The translations under genes and the position numbers were made by a program. This document shows positions 1 to 15,710 of a stretch of 64,000 bases of DNA, one piece after another. The stretch comes from an uncultured Candidatus Melainabacteria bacterium (GTDB lineage Bacteria > Cyanobacteriota > Vampirovibrionia > Gastranaerophilales > Gastranaerophilaceae). The stretch covers positions 372,001 to 436,000 of the forward strand of contig CATLFB010000002.1 of the NCBI GenBank assembly GCA_949927415.1, in the 5' to 3' direction. The notes under the pieces were generated by a model, which ran no database searches, was not told the DNA's origin, and saw only the letters and a list, made by a program, of their open reading frames with translations. Within the stretch, counting starts at the first letter, position 1; the number at the start of each line of letters is the position of its first letter.

Positions 1-1255
1 TGCAACGTTCTGCTGCTAGTAATATTGAACCAGAACCGCCAAAACAATCGAGAACTATATCGTTTTTAGATGACGCGTCCAGCAAAATCGAGTGGCACAT
101 TGCGATATTTTTGCATGTTGGATGCAGCTTCAGCAGCTCTAAAGAAGCCGGATTTGTCGCACGAACACCCGGATAATCCCAAACGTTAGTCCTGTATCTT
201 CCGTTTTTGCCAAGCTGAATATGGTTTTGATGTTTAGCTTTTCCTTTTTTAAATATCGGAATCGTTTCATGCTGGCTTCTATACATAGCCCCCATACCAC
301 CGACTAATTTGTTCCAGACTGCAATATTTTTCAGTTCGGTGTAATGTTTTTTGCCCTGTGTAAGTAAGGTATTTAATCCAGCCCAGTCCATGAAAATATA
401 ACTAAGACTGCCGTCACAGGAAAATTTAACAAGGTTCTGCATAAAGTTTGAGATAAACTCGGCAAACTCTGAATCTGTCATTTCACCTGATGCCATTGCA
501 AATTCTTCGTGCTGTGTTTTACCCAAACCGCAGACGTGACCGTTAATTCTGCAATTATAAGGCGGATCGGTTATAACGATTTGTGCAAGTTCGCCTTGCA
601 TAAGAATTTCAAAAGATCTGACAAGTAACGAATCTCCGCAATAAACGAAATGATCCCCCAGCCGCCACAAATCACCGAGCTTAACTTTAGGCGGAATGTT
701 AGCATCAAGCCAGGTTTCGTCTTCTTTCCCGTCATTATGGACTTTGTTTTTCTCAGAATCGTTGACGAGAAATATTTCATCGTAATCAACGGTATCAAAT
801 CCCAGATCCTCGAAAGTTACGTCGAACTTCATCAATTTCTCTATTTCTTCTTTAAGGTTTTCAAAGTTCCATCCGCCATCTTCTGCGATTTTATTATCCA
901 AAATTCTGATTGCATCAGCTTCTTCGGGTGTTAAGTTTTCAAGTATAATTGCGGGAATTTGAGTAAATCCGAGTTCTTTAGCTGCCAAAAGCCGCAATTC
1001 ACCCGCTATTATGTTGCGTTTTTCATCAAGTAAAACAGGATTTACGTATCCGAATTTCATAATTGCATTTTTTAACTTTTGAAGTTGTTTTTTTGAATGT
1101 TTTCGCAGGCTTTTGAGTTTTAATACGATTAAGTTGATGTCAATCATCTGTAAGTTACTTGATGAAGGTTTACCTTCTAAAAATGTTTTTTCCAAATGGC
1201 GCAGTGCTTGTGAAATGTCTTCACTGCTGAGAGTTCTTGTGTCATTTTTTGACAT
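1..1255 (-). CDS. ParB-like domain / adenine-specific DNA methyltransferase fusion (C-terminus outside window)
   Basis: Reading from the ATG at 1255, with GAGGAG upstream, gives about 418 residues and runs off the left edge. The N-terminal ~130 residues look like a ParB/sulfiredoxin-type domain (IIAGELRLLAAKELG matches the 'GxxRlxAakxlG' core). Next come a linker, a 'GDLWRLGDHFVYCGDS' segment, the catalytic TDPPYN motif (IV) and, near the edge, DCFGGSGS (motif I). That order is the beta class of amino-methyltransferases, and DPPY favours N6-adenine. Such fusions are typical of prophages and conjugative elements, where they act as orphan methylases; no matching restriction gene is adjacent. 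The target site cannot be read from sequence. Confidence 0.88.
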   Translation of the reverse strand, partial: MSKNDTRTLSSEDISQALRHLEKTFLEGKPSSSNLQMIDINLIVLKLKSLRKHSKKQLQKLKNAIMKFGYVNPVLLDEKRNIIAGELRLLAAKELGFTQIPAIILENLTPEEADAIRILDNKIAEDGGWNFENLKEEIEKLMKFDVTFEDLGFDTVDYDEIFLVNDSEKNKVHNDGKEDETWLDANIPPKVKLGDLWRLGDHFVYCGDSLLVRSFEILMQGELAQIVITDPPYNCRINGHVCGLGKTQHEEFAMASGEMTDSEFAEFISNFMQNLVKFSCDGSLSYIFMDWAGLNTLLTQGKKHYTELKNIAVWNKLVGGMGAMYRSQHETIPIFKKGKAKHQNHIQLGKNGRYRTNVWDYPGVRATNPASLELLKLHPTCKNIAMCHSILLDASSKNDIVLDCFGGSGSILLAAERC

Positions 1256-1279
1256 ATGTTTCTCCTCATTAATTTGTAC

Positions 1280-1296
1280 GTTCGAATAATTCGAAC
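1280..1296. promoter_or_regulatory. Palindromic operator candidate upstream of the ParB-methyltransferase gene
   Basis: GTTCGAA-TAA-TTCGAAC is a perfect 7-bp inverted repeat with a 3-bp spacer, 25-41 bp before the methyltransferase start codon, where a promoter would lie. A role as repressor site is inference. The rest of the 184-bp gap (1256-1439) also holds an AT-rich hairpin around 1399-1417 and no gene. Confidence 0.45.
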
Positions 1297-1439
1297 AGAC
1301 AGGCTTTTCCTGACCAAAACAATATAAAGATGTGTTTGAATAACCTAAAACCAGCATGAATAGTGGGTTTTGCTCAAAATCCACATGTAAGCATGACCGC
1401 TTTTATATAAAAAGCGTTTATTTGTGATATTCTTTTGCT

Positions 1440-5532: not shown

Positions 5533-6837
5533 TCATTCAGACACATTAAACAGTGTATTTATTTTATCTGTAAATAAGTTATTATCTGATTTATTTAATA
5601 CATTAACCGGTAAAACTATTATTTCCGTATTGTCAAAATAACTTAACGTTTTTAGAGTTACAAAATGTTCCCATTTTGGATAAGCTAGAAGAACTGTAAC
5701 CTTATTTAAGTTTTTTTGTTTCTTTAATATTTTTGAATATGCAAAAAGCTGGTATAAATCTTGTTGAGAAATATTGTAATAATTATCAATATCATCTTCA
5801 TTAAATAATTTCCATTTTGCATCAATAATTACGGCTTCTGTTTCATTGTCATTAAAAACAACAAAGTCCATTTGAGTATTAAAAATGTCTTTATTTCCAT
5901 CTTTTACTAAATAATATTTAGAAAATTGGCGTTTAATATTTTTAGATTTTTCGCACAAAATATTTTCAATATAATCTTCAAACATTTTTTCAAGAGGAAA
6001 TAACAAAGCCGGCATATTAACCTTTCCTCGTTTTGGGGCAAAGCTTTTATGTCTTAAAAAGAATTTTGCAAAATTAATTGGTCTTTCGTAGTAGCAATGA
6101 AGTCTGTTAATTTGTACATTATTTTCATCTTTATCAAGATTTATGCATTCGTCAACGTCATCAAAAATTACTAGCATTTTTCTCAAAATCTTTTTGTTTT
6201 CTTCATTTTTCGTTTCTTTTAAAAGATATAAACAAGCAGATTTCAAAATTCTATTTTCAGCAATATTATCATTAAAATCATCATATTCAACAAAGAATTT
6301 TTCTTTTGATATAAAATTTTTTCTTATGTGTTCGGTTAAATTTAATTTACCTTTGAAAAATTTCAAATTTTCTTGTTTTGTAGTATAGGATTTTTTTAAT
6401 CCTCTTTGCATAATGATTTTTAAATCTAGACAAAAAATTGCAATCATTATTTCAAGAATTTTTGTATTTTTTGCATTAATATTTGTATTAGAAACTTGTT
6501 TAAATTCTCGTTCAATATTATACGAAGCTTTTATTAAGTTATAGAATATTTGCCGTCCTTCTGTTTCTGAACTTTTATTGATTTTGGGCAGAATTTCTAC
6601 ATAAGTTCCGTCTTTGAGCTGAAATAAACCTGTATATTTTTTAATATCAATACAATTTTCTTTGTAGTTATACGTTAAACCATAATCAAATTCAGCACAA
6701 CAATATTCTTTTAACTCTTCAAAATGCGAACTATTACATCTGCATTTACAAATATCATTACACTCATCACATTCACAAGTTAAACACTGTTTAATTTTAT
6801 CATGTTCGTATGTAATAATTGTTTTATTATTTGTCAT
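5533..6837 (-). CDS. mcrC: McrC-family nuclease subunit of a type IV restriction system
   Basis: 434 residues. The C-terminal half is the PD-(D/E)XK nuclease: E287 (FEDYI), D324 (MDFVV), D339-A-K341 (IIDAKWK) and a following QQDLYQLFAY helix. The middle follows the McrC pattern that docks on the McrB ring (FQLKDGTYVEILPKI). McrC cuts DNA when driven by the McrB GTPase. The ATG overlaps the end of mcrB by 11 nt (ATGACAAATAA), so the two are translationally coupled. Odd feature: nine cysteines lie between residues 18 and 47 (C18, 21, 23, 26, 30, 32, 34, 46, 47) in a segment that is not part of typical McrC, perhaps metal-binding. Confidence 0.93.
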   Translation of the reverse strand: MTNNKTIITYEHDKIKQCLTCECDECNDICKCRCNSSHFEELKEYCCAEFDYGLTYNYKENCIDIKKYTGLFQLKDGTYVEILPKINKSSETEGRQIFYNLIKASYNIEREFKQVSNTNINAKNTKILEIMIAIFCLDLKIIMQRGLKKSYTTKQENLKFFKGKLNLTEHIRKNFISKEKFFVEYDDFNDNIAENRILKSACLYLLKETKNEENKKILRKMLVIFDDVDECINLDKDENNVQINRLHCYYERPINFAKFFLRHKSFAPKRGKVNMPALLFPLEKMFEDYIENILCEKSKNIKRQFSKYYLVKDGNKDIFNTQMDFVVFNDNETEAVIIDAKWKLFNEDDIDNYYNISQQDLYQLFAYSKILKKQKNLNKVTVLLAYPKWEHFVTLKTLSYFDNTEIIVLPVNVLNKSDNNLFTDKINTLFNVSE

Positions 6838-8728
6838 TTTCTTGAGCTTTTTCCAGAATTGTTAACCAATTTTTTTGAATATCATTTAAGTCCGTTTCAC
6901 TGCAATTTAATATGCAAGCTACAGTTTCAGTTTCATTGTAAAAATATTCGTTTAAAAACGGATATAGTTTATTTATGAATACTCGTTTTAAATCTTCTTT
7001 GCTTTTGACCTTCATGAAATATGAATGACCAATTTGGTGATCTTTATCAAATTTCTTGGTTATTCTGCAATTTATATTAGTAAGTAATGTAGCTAAGTTA
7101 ATATTTTCTACTATACTATTTTCTAAAATTTTAGGTTTAGGCATCATTTCTTCAAAGTCAAAACGTCTTCTAAGAGCAGTATCTAAAAGAGCAATAGATC
7201 TGTCTGCCGTATTCATTGTTCCGATTATATATAAATTATTAGGAACTCCAAAAGATTTTTGAGAATATGGGAGAGTAACCTTTAATTCGTGTTCTTCTCC
7301 AATTCTTTTATCTTCTTCGATTAATGTAATAAGTTCGCCAAATATTTTTGAAACATTTCCACGATTTATTTCATCAATAATTAAAATGTGTGGCTTGGAT
7401 TCTTCCTTATTTATTTTACCAGTAATGATTTTATTTAATTCATCGGTTTTTAAATCTGGATTGTAATCCGACTGTCCTTTTTTATTAGGTGAAAAATACC
7501 CGTATATAGATTGTTGTGAGAAAATTTTATCATTAATTTTTGAATAATGTATATCTTCACCCTTATATAACCATTCTACTTTTCTAAAATGAGTGTGTGA
7601 TATAGGAGTATTTTTATCATAGATATAATCACTTTTTACTTGAGCAATTGCTCTAAAATTTCTATTGCCGTTAGAAATGATTATAATATCACCAATATCC
7701 ATCCACTTAACAAATCTTTCAAGAGCTGTTGCGCCCCAACTATCATCAAGGTTTTTGAAATCTTGCCTTGTTTTGCATTCAGAAAAATCAATATCTTTCC
7801 AACCTAATGATACAACATTATTTTCAATACAATAGTCATAAATGTCGTCTTCTTTTTCTAAAGTATTGCCTAAAGACATTTTGAACACCTTTATATTTGA
7901 GAAATCTATTGGTTTTCTTTTTGTAGTTGTTGTTACTATTGTTTTTGCGTGGTCGCAAATATTTTTAAATATACCATTTTCAAGTGTATATCCTAATTTT
8001 TCATCATTTAAACTTGGTTTAATTCCTTCAACAAAATCTTCATAAGAATAAGATTGATGAAAAGTTACAAATTCAATTTGATGCGCTTCTTTTAATCTAT
8101 CAAATTCTTCTTTTATCTCTTTGTAATTTTCTACATTATTGTCAGAATCATATTTTATAATATCCTGCTTAATAATTTCAATTGCTTTAATTACTGTATT
8201 ATAGGTTTTTCCAGTTCCCGGAGGTCCGTATAATATTTGATTTAGCCTTAAATTTTTATTATTTTTAAATTTTGTATCCATATTTATATTTCCTGTAATT
8301 TCTTTTAATGTATTTGTATCGGCTTTATATGAAAGTTCGTATGGTGTATATTCTGGATATTTTATTTTCAGTTGATTACAATATTCTTGATAATTTTGCC
8401 AATTTTCTATATTGTTTTTAAATTCATTATATAATGGCATGACTTTATTAAATGGATAAAAAACGTTTGGTTCTAGCAAAAACAAAAAATGAGTTAATGC
8501 AGAAATCCCCAAAAAACGATATTTATTAGATATAAGTAAATCAAAATTCGAATCTATATTTTTATTGTTTTTCAGTTTTTCCGAGAAATTCCAAATATCA
8601 TCAATAATATAATCCTCTCTTGAATATGTAAATGGCATAAATAGGCATCGTCTATTATCAACAGAAGGTATGCCAGATATATCTACAGGTAAAGGTGCTG
8701 TTATTCCCATTTTTTCTATTATTATCAC
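6827..8728 (-). CDS. mcrB: McrB-family AAA+ GTPase (main part; N-terminus is in another frame)
   Basis: 633 residues in this frame. Walker A GPPGTGKT is at 168-175, FVTFHQSYSYEDFVEGIKP at 220-238, Walker B ILIIDEINRGN at 448-458, the NTP-sensing MNTADRS at 505-511 and the RRRF arginine region at 520-523. Between FKNICDHAK and Walker B lies an extra ~170 residues (~265-440, core VVSLGW ... GDIIIISNGNRNFRAIAQV) that resembles an EVE/PUA-like reader domain. The first codon here is a GTG without SD. The true N-terminus is the overlapping 8658-8921 frame, joined by a one-base shift at the A6 tract (8710-8715). McrB recognises modified bases and powers McrC. Confidence 0.9.
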   Translation of the reverse strand: MIIIEKMGITAPLPVDISGIPSVDNRRCLFMPFTYSREDYIIDDIWNFSEKLKNNKNIDSNFDLLISNKYRFLGISALTHFLFLLEPNVFYPFNKVMPLYNEFKNNIENWQNYQEYCNQLKIKYPEYTPYELSYKADTNTLKEITGNINMDTKFKNNKNLRLNQILYGPPGTGKTYNTVIKAIEIIKQDIIKYDSDNNVENYKEIKEEFDRLKEAHQIEFVTFHQSYSYEDFVEGIKPSLNDEKLGYTLENGIFKNICDHAKTIVTTTTKRKPIDFSNIKVFKMSLGNTLEKEDDIYDYCIENNVVSLGWKDIDFSECKTRQDFKNLDDSWGATALERFVKWMDIGDIIIISNGNRNFRAIAQVKSDYIYDKNTPISHTHFRKVEWLYKGEDIHYSKINDKIFSQQSIYGYFSPNKKGQSDYNPDLKTDELNKIITGKINKEESKPHILIIDEINRGNVSKIFGELITLIEEDKRIGEEHELKVTLPYSQKSFGVPNNLYIIGTMNTADRSIALLDTALRRRFDFEEMMPKPKILENSIVENINLATLLTNINCRITKKFDKDHQIGHSYFMKVKSKEDLKRVFINKLYPFLNEYFYNETETVACILNCSETDLNDIQKNWLTILEKAQENDK

Positions 8729-8921
8729 GTCTCATAAAAAAACGTAACATAAACGTAATAGGGTGAATTTCTTTTAGCTCAGTTTCTTTACCTTGCTTTT
8801 CTTCATCTTTAATGTGTCCAAAAATTTCATGTGCTAATGTACATAAAGAAAATCTATCATAGTTTTTGTGAATTATTGAATGCATTTCTTTAAAAAATGG
8901 TAACCAAGAAAATTGTGTCAT
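8658..8921 (-). pseudogene. mcrB: N-terminal segment of mcrB, out of frame with the rest
   Basis: The ATG at 8921 has a good SD (AGGAGT) and encodes MTQFSWLPFFKEMHSIIHKN...KEIHPITFMLRFFMRRD, which reads naturally into the ITAPLPVDISGIP start of the downstream frame if one A is removed from the A6 run at 8710-8715. In the native frame it continues 15 more residues and stops at 8658. The joined gene (6827-8921) would give about 697 residues. A sequencing error, a phase-variable ON/OFF tract, programmed +1 frameshifting or real inactivation would all look like this. Confidence 0.7.
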
Positions 8922-9791: not shown

Positions 9792-9839
9792 ACCAACGCG
9801 CCCCAATAAAATTACTTGATTTGTTTTAATTTTCATCAT
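9700..9839 (-). pseudogene. ssb: Single-stranded DNA-binding protein, 5' remnant
   Basis: From the ATG at 9839 (overlapping the stop of the upstream gene as ATGA) the product begins MKIKTNQVILLGRVGSYKDI and continues ENGTAIATINIGVKRGQDKW, an SSB OB-fold N-terminus, then loses similarity after ~48 residues and stops at 9651. Normal SSBs exceed 110 residues. It is the last member of a minus-strand phage-type gene string and ends at the junction with the 9561 gene. Confidence 0.7.
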
Positions 9840-10156
9840 TTCCCCTTTCTTATTTCTTCTGTATCTACAAAATCAAACAATAATGAATCAATTTCACCGG
9901 ATGCAATGCCATCATTGAACTTTTGCACCGCATAGGGCAAAGCCTGTGCCGGTGATATTAAATAATTATCTTTTTCAAGTGTCTGTTTAATAATTTCCGG
10001 AACATACTGATTCATTATTATTTTTTGGCTGTTTATTTCTCTAATTTGGCGGATGCGGTCTTTTAATTCCGCATGCAATTCGGAATTGTCTTCATATTTC
10101 ATTCCATATTGCAATTCATCCAAGATTAGATTTTTAACCCTTGAAACAATGTTCAA
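9836..10156 (-). CDS. Phage/ICE early-region protein, unknown
   Basis: 106 residues, mostly helical, starting MNIVSRVKNLILDELQYGMK. It belongs to the leftward gene string controlled from the immunity region and its stop overlaps the SSB start, so the two are coupled. A recombination or replication accessory role would fit the position before ssb, but no domain is visible. Confidence 0.6.
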   Translation of the reverse strand: MNIVSRVKNLILDELQYGMKYEDNSELHAELKDRIRQIREINSQKIIMNQYVPEIIKQTLEKDNYLISPAQALPYAVQKFNDGIASGEIDSLLFDFVDTEEIRKGK

Positions 10157-10832: not shown

Positions 10833-10990
10833 ATATTCCACATATTGAATATTGACAAAATCAACTACACTTCAATATGTGGAATATGTCAATAGTTTTT
10901 ATTCAATTAGTGGAATATTTTATTTACATATGACACAAAAACTTTCATTTTGTGGCATTATATAAGTGTTTGTGTCAATATGTGGAATAT
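10833..10990. promoter_or_regulatory. Operator array of the immunity region (four copies of TCAATATGTGGAATAT)
   Basis: The 16-mer TCAATATGTGGAATAT occurs exactly at 10872-10887 and 10975-10990, exactly on the opposite strand at 10833-10848, and with 14/16 matches at 10903-10918. A weaker version (11/16) lies at 10935-10950. Each has imperfect dyad symmetry (TTC...GAA). The sites fill the 209-bp gap between the divergent Cro-like gene and the repressor, and the last one touches the repressor RBS, so they are very likely the repressor/Cro binding sites. Confidence 0.8.
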
Positions 10991-11005
10991 AAAGGAAATG
11001 TAACA

Positions 11006-11383
11006 ATGCCTAAATTTAGTATTGAAAAAATGCAAGAAATTAGAAAATCCGCCAATCTTACTTATAAAAATTTGGCGGAATTAACTGAAATTAGTGAAAG
11101 TACAATAACAAAAATATTTGGTGGTTTTAACAAAAACCCAACTTTGTCATATTTAAGGAAAATTGCGGATGCTTTAAAATGTAGTCTTGATGATTTTTAT
11201 GAATGGGAATCAGAACCAACATCACCGTATTATTATGACTGCAAAACTGCGGAATTAGCACAAGAAATTCATGATAATCCGGATTATAGAATTTTACTTG
11301 ATGCAACGCGTGATTTAACACCGGAACAATTACAAGCAATTATAAATATGGCAAATGTGATAAAAGGAACTAATAATGGATAA
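11006..11383 (+). CDS. CI/ImmR-like XRE repressor
   Basis: 125 residues from the ATG at 11006, chosen because AAAGGAAA lies 6 nt upstream; the longer frame from 10952 reads through the operators. The HTH occupies residues ~4-62 (IRKSANLTYKNLAELTEISESTITKIFGG ... IADALKCSLDDFYEW). The C-terminal segment has no LexA-type autoprotease, so induction would rely on the next gene. Its stop overlaps the start of the ImmA-like gene by 8 nt. The layout matches ICEBs1-type ImmR/ImmA control. Confidence 0.82.
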   Translation: MPKFSIEKMQEIRKSANLTYKNLAELTEISESTITKIFGGFNKNPTLSYLRKIADALKCSLDDFYEWESEPTSPYYYDCKTAELAQEIHDNPDYRILLDATRDLTPEQLQAIINMANVIKGTNNG

Positions 11384-11594
11384 TTTTATGGTTGTGTATC
11401 AGAATTTACCGGAAAAAGTAAATGCATTTACAATGTATCACGCTGGTGATGACTATTACACAATCATTCTTAATTCCCACGTGTCCTATGATTGCGCAAA
11501 ACGCGCATTTAAACATGAATTAAAACATATTCAAAATAACGATTTTGTAAGGTTTAAAAATGTTGGAAGAATTGAAGAATTAACACATGTATAA
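11376..11594 (+). CDS. ImmA/IrrE-like short metallopeptidase (anti-repressor)
   Basis: 72 residues with the zinc-protease motif H47-E-L-K-H51 (FKHELKHIQNNDF), preceded by YYTIILNSHVSYDCAKRA, the pattern of short ImmA-type proteases encoded next to phage and ICE repressors. ImmA cleaves its partner repressor and releases the element. It overlaps the repressor gene, so the two are co-expressed. Family assignment rests on the motif plus context; activity is inference. Confidence 0.75.
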   Translation: MDNFMVVYQNLPEKVNAFTMYHAGDDYYTIILNSHVSYDCAKRAFKHELKHIQNNDFVRFKNVGRIEELTHV

Positions 11595-11605: not shown

Positions 11606-11794
11606 ATGGAATTTGATGAAGAATTAGAAAATGAACTTGAAGAAAATGAAGATGAAGAAACACCGGAAGATATAACCGCCGGAATGTCATATAAGCAAGT
11701 TAAAATTGCAATAATTATTGGTGTAGTTATAACTATTGCAATATTTATTCCGGTGATTATGTTTATTGCAAAAATAGGAAAAATGTTTTCATAA
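11606..11794 (+). CDS. Small acidic single-pass membrane protein
   Basis: 62 residues: a very acidic N-terminus (EFDEELENELEENEDEETPE) followed by one hydrophobic helix (~33-55, IAIIIGVVITIAIFIPVIMF). Its stop overlaps the recombinase start (TAATG), making it part of the repressor-protease-recombinase operon. Function unknown. Confidence 0.6.
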   Translation: MEFDEELENELEENEDEETPEDITAGMSYKQVKIAIIIGVVITIAIFIPVIMFIAKIGKMFS

Positions 11795-13278
11795 TGTTAT
11801 TAAAAGCGGTTTTATATGCGCGTGTGTCTTCCGACCGTCAAGAAAAAGAAGGTTTTTCAATACCGGCGCAAAAGAAATTATTAAAAGAATATGCAAAAAA
11901 CAACAATATAAACATTGTTGCGGAATTTGTTGAACCGGAAACCGCCAAAAAAGCCGGAAGAACCAAATTTAATGAAATGTTGAAATACTTGCGCAAGCAT
12001 CCGCAAGTTAGAATCATACTTGTTGAAAAAACCGACCGTATTTATAGAAACTTAAAAGATTATGTAACATTGGATGAATTTAAGGATTTGGAAGTTCATT
12101 TGGTAAAAGAACATGAAATAATATCCGATAAATCATCATCACATGAAAAGTTTGTTTATGGTCTGAAAGTTTTAATGGCTAAAAACTACATTGACAATTT
12201 ATCGGAAGAAATAAGAAAAGGACTTCAAGAAAAATGCGCACAAGGTTATTACCCATCATCACTTCCAATTGGTTATGAAAACAAGGCAAATGCAACCGGC
12301 AAAAAAGAAATTTTTCTTTCATCTGATGCGCCATTTATTAAACAAATCTTTGAAAAATATTTGTTGGGTGATTACACATATAAATCATTGGCGCAAGAAA
12401 TGAGTGATGCGGGATTTTTTCCCAAAAATAGACAGTGCATCAATAAAACTGTTGAACACATTTTGCATAATGAGTTTTACACCGGCATTTTCTATTTCAA
12501 AGGTGTTAAATATTATGATGCAAAACATCCGGCAATTATCACACCGGAATTGTTTCTGAAAGTGCAAGAAAAAATGAAAAGCAAATATAAAATTGCACCA
12601 AAGAAACACAAATTTGCATATTCCGGATTTATCAAATGCGCACATTGCGGAAAATCTTTAATTGCGGAACTTCAACACGGAAAACACAATTCCGGTGATT
12701 ATGTTTATTATAGATGTCATAATTGCAAAGGAATAACAATCCGTGAAGATAGATTTGAAGATGCGTTCTATAATGATGTGTTGAAAAAAATTGAATTTCC
12801 GGAAGAATTTCACCAAGAAATCATCCGTGTTGCAAAAGAATTGGTTGAATGTGAAACCGTATTTGCGGAAACAAGCATGAATGAACTTCATCACAAAATT
12901 CAAGTGTTAAAAAGAAGATTATCCCAATTATACACCGATAGATGTGATGGAATGGTTGATGATGAAACATATTTAAACAAGCGCAATGAATGGCAAATGG
13001 AATTGGATAAAAATTTGGTTAAATATGAAAAAATCAACAATGCAAGTGATGGTTTTGTTGAAAGTGTTGATAATTTGTCGAACCTTTGCAAAAACGCACC
13101 GCAACACTATTTGCGCCAATCACAAGAACAAAAAAGAAAAATGATGAATTTGATAATGTCGAACCCTGTTTTTGATGGCTCAAACCTAATCATGCCGGTA
13201 GTTCCCGCCTTTGAATATGCAATGAAGTTAAAAAATGTGGAGACGAGGGGAGTCGAACCCCTGTCCAAAATGGATTAA
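11794..13278 (+). CDS. Large serine recombinase (integrase) of the ssrA-inserted element
   Basis: 494 residues. The catalytic resolvase domain begins YARVSSDRQEKEGFSIPAQK (nucleophile S12), followed by the 'recombinase' domain (~150-260), a zinc ribbon (CAHCGK ... CHNCKG, ~292-318) and a coiled coil (~355-420). The frame runs directly into the 3' end of ssrA: the last ~13 codons (VETRGVEPLSKMD) are tmRNA sequence read antisense, a usual sign that the integrase abuts its attachment site. Serine integrases catalyse attP x attB integration without host factors; excision needs a directionality factor, none of which is recognisable here. Confidence 0.93.
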   Translation: MLLKAVLYARVSSDRQEKEGFSIPAQKKLLKEYAKNNNINIVAEFVEPETAKKAGRTKFNEMLKYLRKHPQVRIILVEKTDRIYRNLKDYVTLDEFKDLEVHLVKEHEIISDKSSSHEKFVYGLKVLMAKNYIDNLSEEIRKGLQEKCAQGYYPSSLPIGYENKANATGKKEIFLSSDAPFIKQIFEKYLLGDYTYKSLAQEMSDAGFFPKNRQCINKTVEHILHNEFYTGIFYFKGVKYYDAKHPAIITPELFLKVQEKMKSKYKIAPKKHKFAYSGFIKCAHCGKSLIAELQHGKHNSGDYVYYRCHNCKGITIREDRFEDAFYNDVLKKIEFPEEFHQEIIRVAKELVECETVFAETSMNELHHKIQVLKRRLSQLYTDRCDGMVDDETYLNKRNEWQMELDKNLVKYEKINNASDGFVESVDNLSNLCKNAPQHYLRQSQEQKRKMMNLIMSNPVFDGSNLIMPVVPAFEYAMKLKNVETRGVEPLSKMD

Positions 13279-13641
13279 AACAAATCTCTACGAGTGTAGA
13301 TTTTTATTCGCTCAACTGATTCAGGAAAAAATCAATACCCGGTAAATCAGTCCTAGGTTTTATTTTAAGGAAACTCTAAACCTTGCAACGTTATCTTGAT
13401 GCACCTACATTGCTTCAATGCACTGCGTCTTGCATAATTGACCCATAAAACCGGCAAGATGGGCTTTATGAGTAGCCTCAATTGACTAAGCAGCTCTTCT
13501 TGCTGCGTTTCTGAAGTCAACTGCGATTACGTTTGAATCGTTGTTAGCATTTAATTTGTTTTGCTCGTTGATAACCGAGAACAGCGCTCGGACCCGCAAC
13601 CTGCTCCAACCGAAACATCCTGTCTAATCCAAAACGTCCCC
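13238..13641 (-). ncRNA. ssrA: tmRNA (transfer-messenger RNA)
   Basis: The 5' end GGGGACGTTTTGG at 13641 pairs with the 3' CGTCTCC ending at 13239 (7 bp including one G-U), and the T-arm GGGGTTCGACTCCCC is present. The CCA tail is not encoded. The tag frame (13548-13486) starts at GCT and ends at TAG, giving ANNDSNVIAVDFRNAARRAA. tmRNA rescues stalled ribosomes and tags the nascent chain for proteolysis. It is a one-piece tmRNA about 404 nt long; its 3' end coincides with the end of the serine recombinase gene, so the 3' portion was probably regenerated by integration. Confidence 0.95.
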
Positions 13642-13815
13642 ATATATTTAATTATTAATGTACCAGACCGCACTTTGTGCGGTGTCTAATCCAGTCGCTA
13701 TCTGAATATTTTTCTGAAATTTGACTAAATCTGTGAAGCCGCGACGCCATTTTGCACGTTTCGCTTAAACTCAACGGCAAAAGAAGGCAACGTCCCCATA
13801 TTTAATTATTAATGT
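13633..13815. repeat. Duplicated ssrA 5' end flanking a ~127-bp insert
   Basis: Copy A (13633-13661) carries the mature tmRNA 5' end. Copy B (13789-13815) repeats AACGTCCCCATAT then TTAATTATTAATGT, differing by one missing AT. Between them is a ~127-bp non-coding stretch with a 7-bp hairpin (ACCGCAC-TTT-GTGCGGT, ~13666-13682) and a second TGTCTAATCCA (13683-13693), which also occurs inside ssrA at 13621-13631. It looks like a small insertion with a direct repeat, or a partial duplication of the ssrA front. Confidence 0.65.
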
Positions 13816-14507: not shown

Positions 14508-15674
14508 TCAAAAAAATTCTTTCACCAGTGCCATCTCATTTTCTAATGTCATCTTTGGATTTTTAAGTTTCTTATTCAGAAGAAAATCAAAAATTTCCTT
14601 ATACTTTGGTGAGGGTTCAAATCCGGCTTCCTCTAGATGTTTTCCGGTTGTCGCTATTTTTATGCCGCGCAAATCGTCCAGATAATGCCGCGCAAGTTTT
14701 TCATCACACAAAACCGCAAAGAGTATAATACTCTCGATTTCTTTGCCGTCAAAAGCTTTGTAAATTGCAAAATCATCGTTCAAGCCAGAATTTTCAAGCG
14801 CCGCAAAATCGTCAAGAATTTTCTGTTCTTTACGTGTCAATTCAATCCGCGTCAAATCCCGCAAAATGCCTGCATAAATCAGCCAGATATTTTCTGATTC
14901 CGGTGCATATTGTGAAATTAGATTTTTAATTGTCGTTGAAGGGACTTGAACCCGATTTGGCGTCACAAGTTTGTAAATGCCGCTTTCAATGAATTCTTTA
15001 AAAAGCTCGTCGCTGTTTAAGCCAAGCGTTTCAATAAGTTCTTTTTTTACGCGTTTGAAACACATGTCGTAATTTATGTTTTGCAAATATTCATCACGCA
15101 GCGCGCGCGTGCGCGCATCTAGAATAAACCCGAAACGGTGGGAAAATTTAAGCGCGCGGATTATTCGCGTCGGGTCATCAACAAAACTTTCATCATGCAA
15201 AACGCGAATAATTTTATTTTTCAAATCTTCAAGCCCGCCGGTAAAATCAAAAATTTCGCCTGTTGAAACTGATTTGTAAAGCGAATTCACGGTAAAATCA
15301 CGCCGCATAACATCTTCTTTTAAAGAAACTCCGATTTTATCAACAACAGGCAAATGACCTTTGAGCGGGTAAGTTTCGGTACGGGTTGATGCAATATCCA
15401 CAACAGTATCCCCTCTACCTCCGGGAGAGGGTAGAATTTCGCCGTTTTCATCCTGAAAATGGCTGAAATTCGGGTGAGGGTTTAACTTCACGCGGATTGT
15501 CCCAAAATCAGGATTCACGCGGACTAATTCCCCGAACTCCGAACAATCCTCAATCGCGTTCCCTTCATAAACAATATCAACGTCAAGTGATTTTATTCCG
15601 AGAAGTTCATCGCGCACAACACCGCCTACGTAAAATAGTTTATTTGAAGTATCCTTTAAACTGATGATGTCCAT
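14508..15674 (-). CDS. cca: CCA-adding enzyme / poly(A) polymerase family nucleotidyltransferase
   Basis: 388 residues from the ATG at 15674 (an upstream in-frame TTG at 15710 lacks support and abuts a MITE). The class II nucleotidyltransferase head shows YVGGVVRDELLG, catalytic D31-V-D33 and a third acid at VVD93IA; RRDFTVNSLY and DDPTRIIRALKFSHRFGF follow. It adds or repairs the tRNA 3' CCA (or A) end. Odd: residues 65-90 (NPHPNFSHFQDENGEILPSP plus GGRGDT) interrupt the strand just before the third catalytic Asp and are encoded by a palindromic repeat (15411-15480). No SD; TAAAAT lies 7 nt before the ATG. Confidence 0.92.
   Translation of the reverse strand: MDIISLKDTSNKLFYVGGVVRDELLGIKSLDVDIVYEGNAIEDCSEFGELVRVNPDFGTIRVKLNPHPNFSHFQDENGEILPSPGGRGDTVVDIASTRTETYPLKGHLPVVDKIGVSLKEDVMRRDFTVNSLYKSVSTGEIFDFTGGLEDLKNKIIRVLHDESFVDDPTRIIRALKFSHRFGFILDARTRALRDEYLQNINYDMCFKRVKKELIETLGLNSDELFKEFIESGIYKLVTPNRVQVPSTTIKNLISQYAPESENIWLIYAGILRDLTRIELTRKEQKILDDFAALENSGLNDDFAIYKAFDGKEIESIILFAVLCDEKLARHYLDDLRGIKIATTGKHLEEAGFEPSPKYKEIFDFLLNKKLKNPKMTLENEMALVKEFF
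15411..15480. repeat. GC-rich palindromic element inside cca
   Basis: Two adjacent hairpins: CCCTCT...AGAGGG, then GAATTTCGCCGTTTTCA paired with TGAAAATGGCTGAAATTC (17 bp with one bulge), closed by CGGGTGAGGG. It keeps the reading frame and adds ~26 residues to the enzyme. Related copies lie at 32808-32832, 41821-41892 and, shortened, in mfd. Confidence 0.75.
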
Positions 15675-15710
15675 ATTGGGAATTTTAGCGTAAAATAGAA
15701 GTAGATACAA

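Follow-up and report, generated by a model that had tools for sequence, protein, structure and literature searches.

A widespread clade of phage large serine integrases predicted to insert at tRNA and tmRNA 3' ends, with attP inside the integrase gene

The large serine integrases of LI/A118, phiC31, Bxb1 and TP901-1 resemble the recombinases described here in domain order, catalytic residues, a short crossover core and a 5-bp offset of a motif in attP (PMC3783163); in the LI integrase it is the zinc-ribbon motif whose distance from the centre is 5 bp greater in attP than in attB (Rutherford et al., PMC3783163). Unlike these enzymes, the present clade appears to target tRNA and tmRNA 3' ends, to carry attP within the integrase gene and to exchange its tail on integration. 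Serine integrases have been reported as not known to specify tRNA genes (PMC4383910), and a 2011 survey called their use of such genes rare, giving as its two cases a mycobacterial AICE at tRNA-Leu and Ralstonia phage phiRSM1 at tRNA-Ser (PMC3218068). The serine recombinase of Paracoccus phage Pami6, at tRNA-Met, is a third (PMC6536676), and tRNA goes unmentioned in the main text of the LSR atlas of Durrant et al. AICE, phiRSM1 and Pami6 likewise place a serine recombinase at a tRNA gene, yet they are isolated cases and are likened to the present clade by target alone.

Other resemblances are to systems built on tyrosine recombinases. Islander-type tDNA islands also lie at tRNA/tmRNA 3' ends (PMC4383910), but they depend on a tyrosine integrase, whereas here the enzyme is of the serine type and a displaced tDNA fragment of 20 bp or more is absent: the source genome (G000) holds a single ssrA 3' end, and alphaproteobacterial genomes mostly hold single tRNA copies. 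In mycobacteriophage BPs, with its integration-dependent immunity, attP is likewise inside a gene of the lysogeny module and the target is a tRNA gene; integration removes an ssrA-like tag from the repressor, and the integrase is also tagged (PMC4557955, PMC9262239). There, however, a tyrosine integrase with a 35-bp core cuts the repressor gene, whereas here attP lies within the integrase gene, and a serine integrase apparently severs the end of its own gene and acquires a tail read antisense from the tRNA; the clade is not an instance of BPs-type immunity, since both the gene and the enzyme family differ. Archaeal suicidal (SSV-type) integrases share attP in their own gene, frequent tRNA targets and partition of the gene on integration, and have been stated to be exclusively archaeal (PMC8371274). 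They are tyrosine recombinases destroyed on integration, the halves being non-functional, whereas in the serine enzyme studied here only the tail is swapped and the catalytic and DNA-binding body keeps its complete domains when integrated.

The locus lies in a 64,000-nucleotide stretch (the window, G000:C2:372001-436000, C2 being the contig), probably from a gastranaerophile, as the nearest loci of named origin come from Candidatus Gastranaerophilales MAGs; the features at the junction are as follows.

11794..13278, + strand: large serine recombinase (LSR, integrase), 494 aa; Pfam Resolvase, Recombinase and Zn_ribbon_recom
13237..13641, - strand: ssrA (tmRNA), the target gene, its 3' end forming the attB side of attL; ARAGORN and Rfam
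13236..13241, no strand: position matching the 6-bp crossover core, TGTGGA (against ACTGGA in G170); from G170 attL/attR and the alignment of integrated and free forms, deduced for the window copy
13253..13258, + strand: T-loop complement TCGAAC, presumed zinc-ribbon motif of attB, 12 nt after TGG; offset by 5 bp relative to attP in relatives
14508..15710, - strand: host flank, gene of polyA-polymerase/CCA-adding type; Pfam PolyA_pol, adjoins ssrA in congeners (synteny)

ARAGORN and Rfam agree on a one-piece tmRNA at 13235/13237-13641 (- strand) with the tag ANNDSNVIAVDFRNAARRAA. In the LSR a Resolvase catalytic domain is followed by a Recombinase domain and a zinc ribbon with a coiled-coil, for which the AlphaFold model has helices at residues 337-417; catalytic residues such as R10, S12, R82 and R85 are invariant in the LSR alignment. 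These properties identify the gene as a large serine integrase with predicted recombination activity. The model falls below a pLDDT of 50 only at residues 266-271 and 482-494, and the latter (the last 13 residues; ETRGVEPLSKMD plus the preceding codon) are encoded antisense by the tmRNA 3' end, into which the ORF crosses at codon 482 with an overlap of 42 nt. The initial annotation had the recombinase ending antisense inside ssrA and took ssrA for the attachment site of an element with a serine recombinase, both of which hold; its remark that a serine integrase at a tDNA is unusual agrees with the literature (PMC4383910, PMC3218068). It overlooked that these last 13 residues appear to come from ssrA because attP sits inside the LSR gene.

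Relatives of the LSR were gathered from 146 related genomes, IMG/VR and GTDB genomes, the genome scan using the closer of two alignment sets (A2; the first, A1, was too diverse), which gave a survey set of 182 distinct LSRs above 110 bits. The geometry of the window gene recurs in 134 of them, which abut a tRNA/tmRNA 3' end or its remnant in antisense, usually with an overlap of 10-145 nt. Their targets include tmRNA and the tRNAs for Ala, Arg, Asn, Asp, Gln, Glu, His, Ile, Leu, Met, Pro, Ser and Val, and their hosts include Gastranaerophilales, Alphaproteobacteria (Sphingomonas, Mesorhizobium, Bradyrhizobium and Caulobacter), Gammaproteobacteria, Planctomycetota, Acidobacteriota and Zixibacteria. 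The two nearest homologues (67% and 66% identity) are also at tmRNA. In a quick tree, built without bootstraps and with several outer rows on long branches, 107 of the 141 members of the main side are tDNA-associated, and the window's branch (SH-aLRT 96) holds six tmRNA-targeting LSRs, three without an RNA neighbour and one cut contig (L183). What looks like a tRNA-Leu stands at the end of the latter, so that the branch is not uniformly directed to tmRNA. On the opposing side, 23 of the genomic LSRs surveyed lie without an adjoining RNA gene, and tandem insertion accounts for only some of these. Judged from sequence, the window gene is nevertheless a member of a widespread, little-described clade of phage LSRs whose attB is a tRNA/tmRNA 3' end; earlier descriptions of such a clade are possible beyond the open-access literature. 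A whole clade that specifies these ends contrasts with the earlier "not known" or "rare", and serine integrases docking at conserved tRNA ends may aid DNA insertion into poorly tractable bacteria. The source genome holds two further elements of the clade, a prophage of ~59 kb at tRNA-His (C3 ~182.8-242 kb) and an element at tRNA-Arg(TCT) (C5 114269-115678).

The putative crossover is a core of 5-11 bp at the extreme 3' end of the RNA gene (the discriminator/CCA end), a position that leaves the RNA gene unsplit. Tandem insertions at tRNA-Arg(TCT) expose both junctions, with the shared cores GGGTATTTTTT, GGGTA and AGGGTA, and at tRNA-His the shared core is GCCCCATTT; the core at the far end of the tRNA-His prophage of G000 was not identified. 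A pattern scan with a 14-nt tmRNA core gave too many chance matches. For the prophage at ssrA in G170, attL (CATAAACTGGAGACGG) and attR (AAATACTGGACATGATG) share the 6-bp core ACTGGA, and attR is adjoined by the displaced downstream flank of ssrA, which includes the terminator and can be recognised by its likeness to the unoccupied flank in congeners. The TCGAAC motif keeps a fixed distance from the core that is greater by 5 bp in attP than in attB: TGG+12 in attB and TGG+17 in attP for tmRNA, TGG+15 and TGG+20 for tRNA-Asp and tRNA-His, and TACCC+10 and TACCC+15 for tRNA-Arg. A short core together with this shift is found in relatives at tmRNA, Asp, Arg and His, and the spacing suggests that the zinc ribbon contacts TCGAAC. 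The attP pattern (TGG N17 or N20, then [TC][CA]GAAC) occurs in the last 220 nt of 21/24 free-form LSR genes, compared with 14/985 control windows. Such a simple recognition rule makes targets and attP predictable from sequence and explains how one enzyme family could move among tmRNA and almost every tRNA isotype.

LSRs of the clade also occur on many virus contigs without an adjoining tRNA. On several of these contigs the LSR points with its 3' end towards a lysis gene, which in the integrated G170 prophage stands at the far end; this arrangement identifies the contigs as free forms. Free and integrated forms align up to the RNA 3' end and diverge beyond it. The missing part of the integrase gene is found again at the far ends of integrated elements, where orphan tails follow directly after the core in the orientation of the LSR: at tmRNA in G170 (..QIKKYKKCA*, E 1.5e-10) and G169 (..IEIYKKCA*), at tRNA-Arg in G011 and G008 (..WAIMKDVA*, ..WAILKDVA* and ..WAILKSAA*), and at tRNA-Asp in G028 (..SRYIA*) and G044 (..HKKIA*). 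The tails of G169, G028 and G044 have weak scores and are assigned by position, core and motif spacing; the search for such tails was confined to branches other than the alphaproteobacterial one. As in suicidal integrases, attP thus appears to lie in the integrase's own gene, as indicated by the orphan tails and by the alignment of free and integrated forms. Target, core, in-gene attP and tail exchange can all be read from the sequences of relatives; the window copy represents the attL side only, and its core and former tail are deduced from those relatives.

The endings of the exchanged tails differ between the two forms. Among LSRs in virus contigs without an RNA neighbour, 16/21 end in [AVLIC]A (LAA, LVA, KCA, KAA or LCA) and so resemble ssrA tags, compared with 2/134 integrated LSRs and 9/274 other ORFs of the same loci (Fisher p ~1e-15, uncorrected for relatedness and inflated, the free forms being mutually related). 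Codon position 3 is the most variable in free tails, which implies that they are translated and under some constraint. The tails of L205, L206 and L210 end otherwise, and two tandem tRNA-Arg tails end in KY rather than AA.

We propose that the zinc ribbon would read the nearly universal T-loop (TCGAAC), with crossover in the 5-11 bp core, so that a phage-derived element would come to lie at the extreme 3' end of ssrA with the RNA gene unsplit. In the free phage the enzyme would carry a phage-encoded tail of ~15-45 residues, usually ending in -AA, -LVA, -CA or similar; integration would sever the piece that encodes this tail and leave it stranded at the prophage's far end; the integrated enzyme would gain a short disordered tail translated antisense from the RNA gene. 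If the free tail is an ssrA-like degron, the integrase would be unstable in the free phage but would persist in the lysogen; there, as long as no directionality factor is present, the stabilised enzyme would re-insert any excised copy. That the free tail is such a degron, so that the integrase is stabilised by integration and lysogeny tends to become fixed, has by analogy with phage BPs about an even chance of being correct. The same balanced judgement applies to the combined proposal that the clade reads the universal T-loop, inserts at the last nucleotides of the RNA gene and uses integration as a protein switch, replacing a degron by an RNA-antisense tail that stabilises the enzyme only in the lysogen. 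By exchanging its own C-terminus on integration, such an integrase would constitute a compact and directly testable genetic switch.

Almost as credible, at a little under even probability, is an in-gene attP with a tail exchange that has no regulatory role, the C-terminus being dispensable and the -AA ending being due to common ancestry or to another function such as partner binding. Integrated tails are mutually unrelated and modelled as disordered, which implies that an enzyme lacking a fixed tail is functional or tolerated; free forms are also phylogenetically clustered, and some tails end otherwise. However, Ala-ending tails recur in the tmRNA, Asp, Arg, His and Ala-type branches in otherwise different sequences, codon position 3 varies most in the tails, and phage BPs provides the precedent of a proven degron. 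The explanation as a whole (an LSR clade directed to tDNA ends, attP within the gene, tail exchange and a remnant copy in the window), the degron step apart, appears to us very probable.

To the left of the integrase, the element contains the following genes.

10952..11383, + strand: XRE/Cro-type repressor of the element; Pfam HTH, 70% identical to the repressor of the G169 tmRNA prophage
11376..11594, + strand: 72-aa protein between repressor and integrase, with no Pfam match; 71% identical to the G169 gene in the equivalent position
9836..10156, - strand: 106-aa early gene, divergent from the repressor; 70% identity over 76 aa to the G169 gene in the equivalent position
6827..8728, - strand: McrB-like AAA GTPase/ATPase, probable cargo; Pfam AAA_5
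5533..6837, - strand: McrC, probable cargo; Pfam McrBC PF10117, E 2e-74
2..1384, - strand: ParB-like/DNA methyltransferase gene, probable cargo, continuing beyond the left edge; 28% identical to a gene of the tRNA-His prophage of G000

The four ssrA-proximal genes (LSR, 72-aa protein, XRE repressor and divergent 106-aa gene) correspond to the lysogeny module of G169 at 67-71% identity, and the G169 prophage, also at ssrA, carries structural genes. No capsid, terminase or tail genes were identified in the window element and its far end is missing, so that it is not an intact prophage bounded by two att sites. A DUF2130 gene follows ssrA within ~1.7-3.3 kb in G007, G011 and G010, whereas in G000 only its 3' part is left (C2:369937-370437), ~14.8 kb from ssrA and joined to a 3'-truncated RhuM gene; the left junction of the element was placed by this truncated gene. 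Most simply, the DNA between about window -1560 and 13237, including McrBC and the ParB/methyltransferase gene, is an insertion whose far end was lost by deletion, apparently into the DUF2130 gene. No further trace of the far end was found: the congener ssrA 3' flank was absent from G000, and C2:312-386 kb held no orphan integrase tail of the window element. The window element is best read as the remnant of a tmRNA prophage, a lysogeny module with defence cargo, and, its far attachment site having been lost, this copy should no longer excise by itself. The suggestion that the whole left block is element cargo is upheld as probable, since ssrA stands on one side of the block and, on the other, the gene that in congeners comes soon after ssrA; the far attachment site that would bound it has apparently been deleted. 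The mcrB gene seems to be frameshifted (6827-8921), ORF 8658-8921 (-) resembling the start of its N-terminal domain and ORF 6827-8728 (-) the remainder, by inactivation or possibly by assembly error.

It is conceivable, though on balance doubtful, that the left block is a composite of several insertions and that only the lysogeny module (~9.8-13.2 kb) came from the tmRNA element. Only four genes match the G169 prophage, in which RhuM, the methyltransferase, the WG-repeat gene and McrBC have no counterpart, and the left junction is a deletion scar. Against this, the entire block is enclosed by ssrA and the DUF2130 gene, and prophage-derived islands commonly carry defence cargo.

A further alternative, that another integrase, for instance of the tyrosine type, made the insertions and that the LSR merely adjoins the site, is very unlikely. 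Insertion into tDNA is classically tyrosine-integrase work (PMC4383910), and fragments starting at the anticodon region near L276, L252, L255 and L302 point to additional insertions at some of the RNA genes concerned. However, the cores measure 5-11 bp and not 20 bp or more, the 5-bp motif offset is of the serine type, and the gene split by attP is the serine gene itself. The initial annotation had expected a 20-40 bp duplicate of the ssrA end and counted its absence as refuting integration. No second copy was present in the window or in the whole genome, where a 24-nt probe allowing <=3 mismatches matched only ssrA itself; yet this does not refute integration, because a duplicate of 20-40 bp is the signature of tyrosine integrases and the core in relatives is only 5-11 bp. 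Lacking a long duplicate, such integration sites are easily missed. That the overlap is a chance read-through of an unrelated gene into ssrA, in keeping with last 13 residues that are unconserved and poorly modelled, is exceedingly improbable and was ruled out by the survey of relatives, in which the identical geometry recurs so widely (134/182).

A crossover at the anticodon loop was also considered, from tRNA 3'-half fragments near some alphaproteobacterial LSRs, and rejected, most genomes holding a single matching copy; the sole duplicate (G166) looks like a two-element locus, where the fragment is better explained by a second insertion. The recombinases L252, L255, L276 and L302 adjoin tRNA 3' halves that start near the anticodon, and at L276 the tRNA 3' end occurs again 10.3 kb further on, which suggests that a single tRNA holds two elements.

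The search of the genus yielded ten complete ssrA genes. Unoccupied ssrA genes, which the initial annotation had proposed to look for in relatives, are seen in G007, G008 and G006, which have a native 3' flank (CCACCATTAAAATTCAGAGGCTT.., a terminator) in common, whereas the sequence differs directly after the ssrA 3' end in G000, G001, G003, G005, G010 and G011; such differing flanks imply that the site has been altered repeatedly. In G011 (L005) a short direct repeat of the gene end (CGTCTCCAATTT) stands ~110 bp downstream and may mark where an element has been lost. The ssrA T-stem exists in two versions within the genus (L002-L011), CAGGGG..CCCCT and CGCGGG..CCCGC, distributed independently of close kinship. 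Occupied tRNA/tmRNA genes often have no encoded CCA (window 13235-13241; L053, L085 and L097) and so would depend on an enzyme that adds CCA; the conserved neighbour of ssrA (14508-15710) is a gene of this kind. At the other end of the gene, the ssrA 5' end with its leader (AACGTCCCCATATTTAATTATTAATG) is repeated ~155 nt upstream (window 13634-13815). The two copies, perhaps left by a duplication or belonging to a small RNA, flank a segment that can also be recognised in front of ssrA in G004, G008, G010 and G011.
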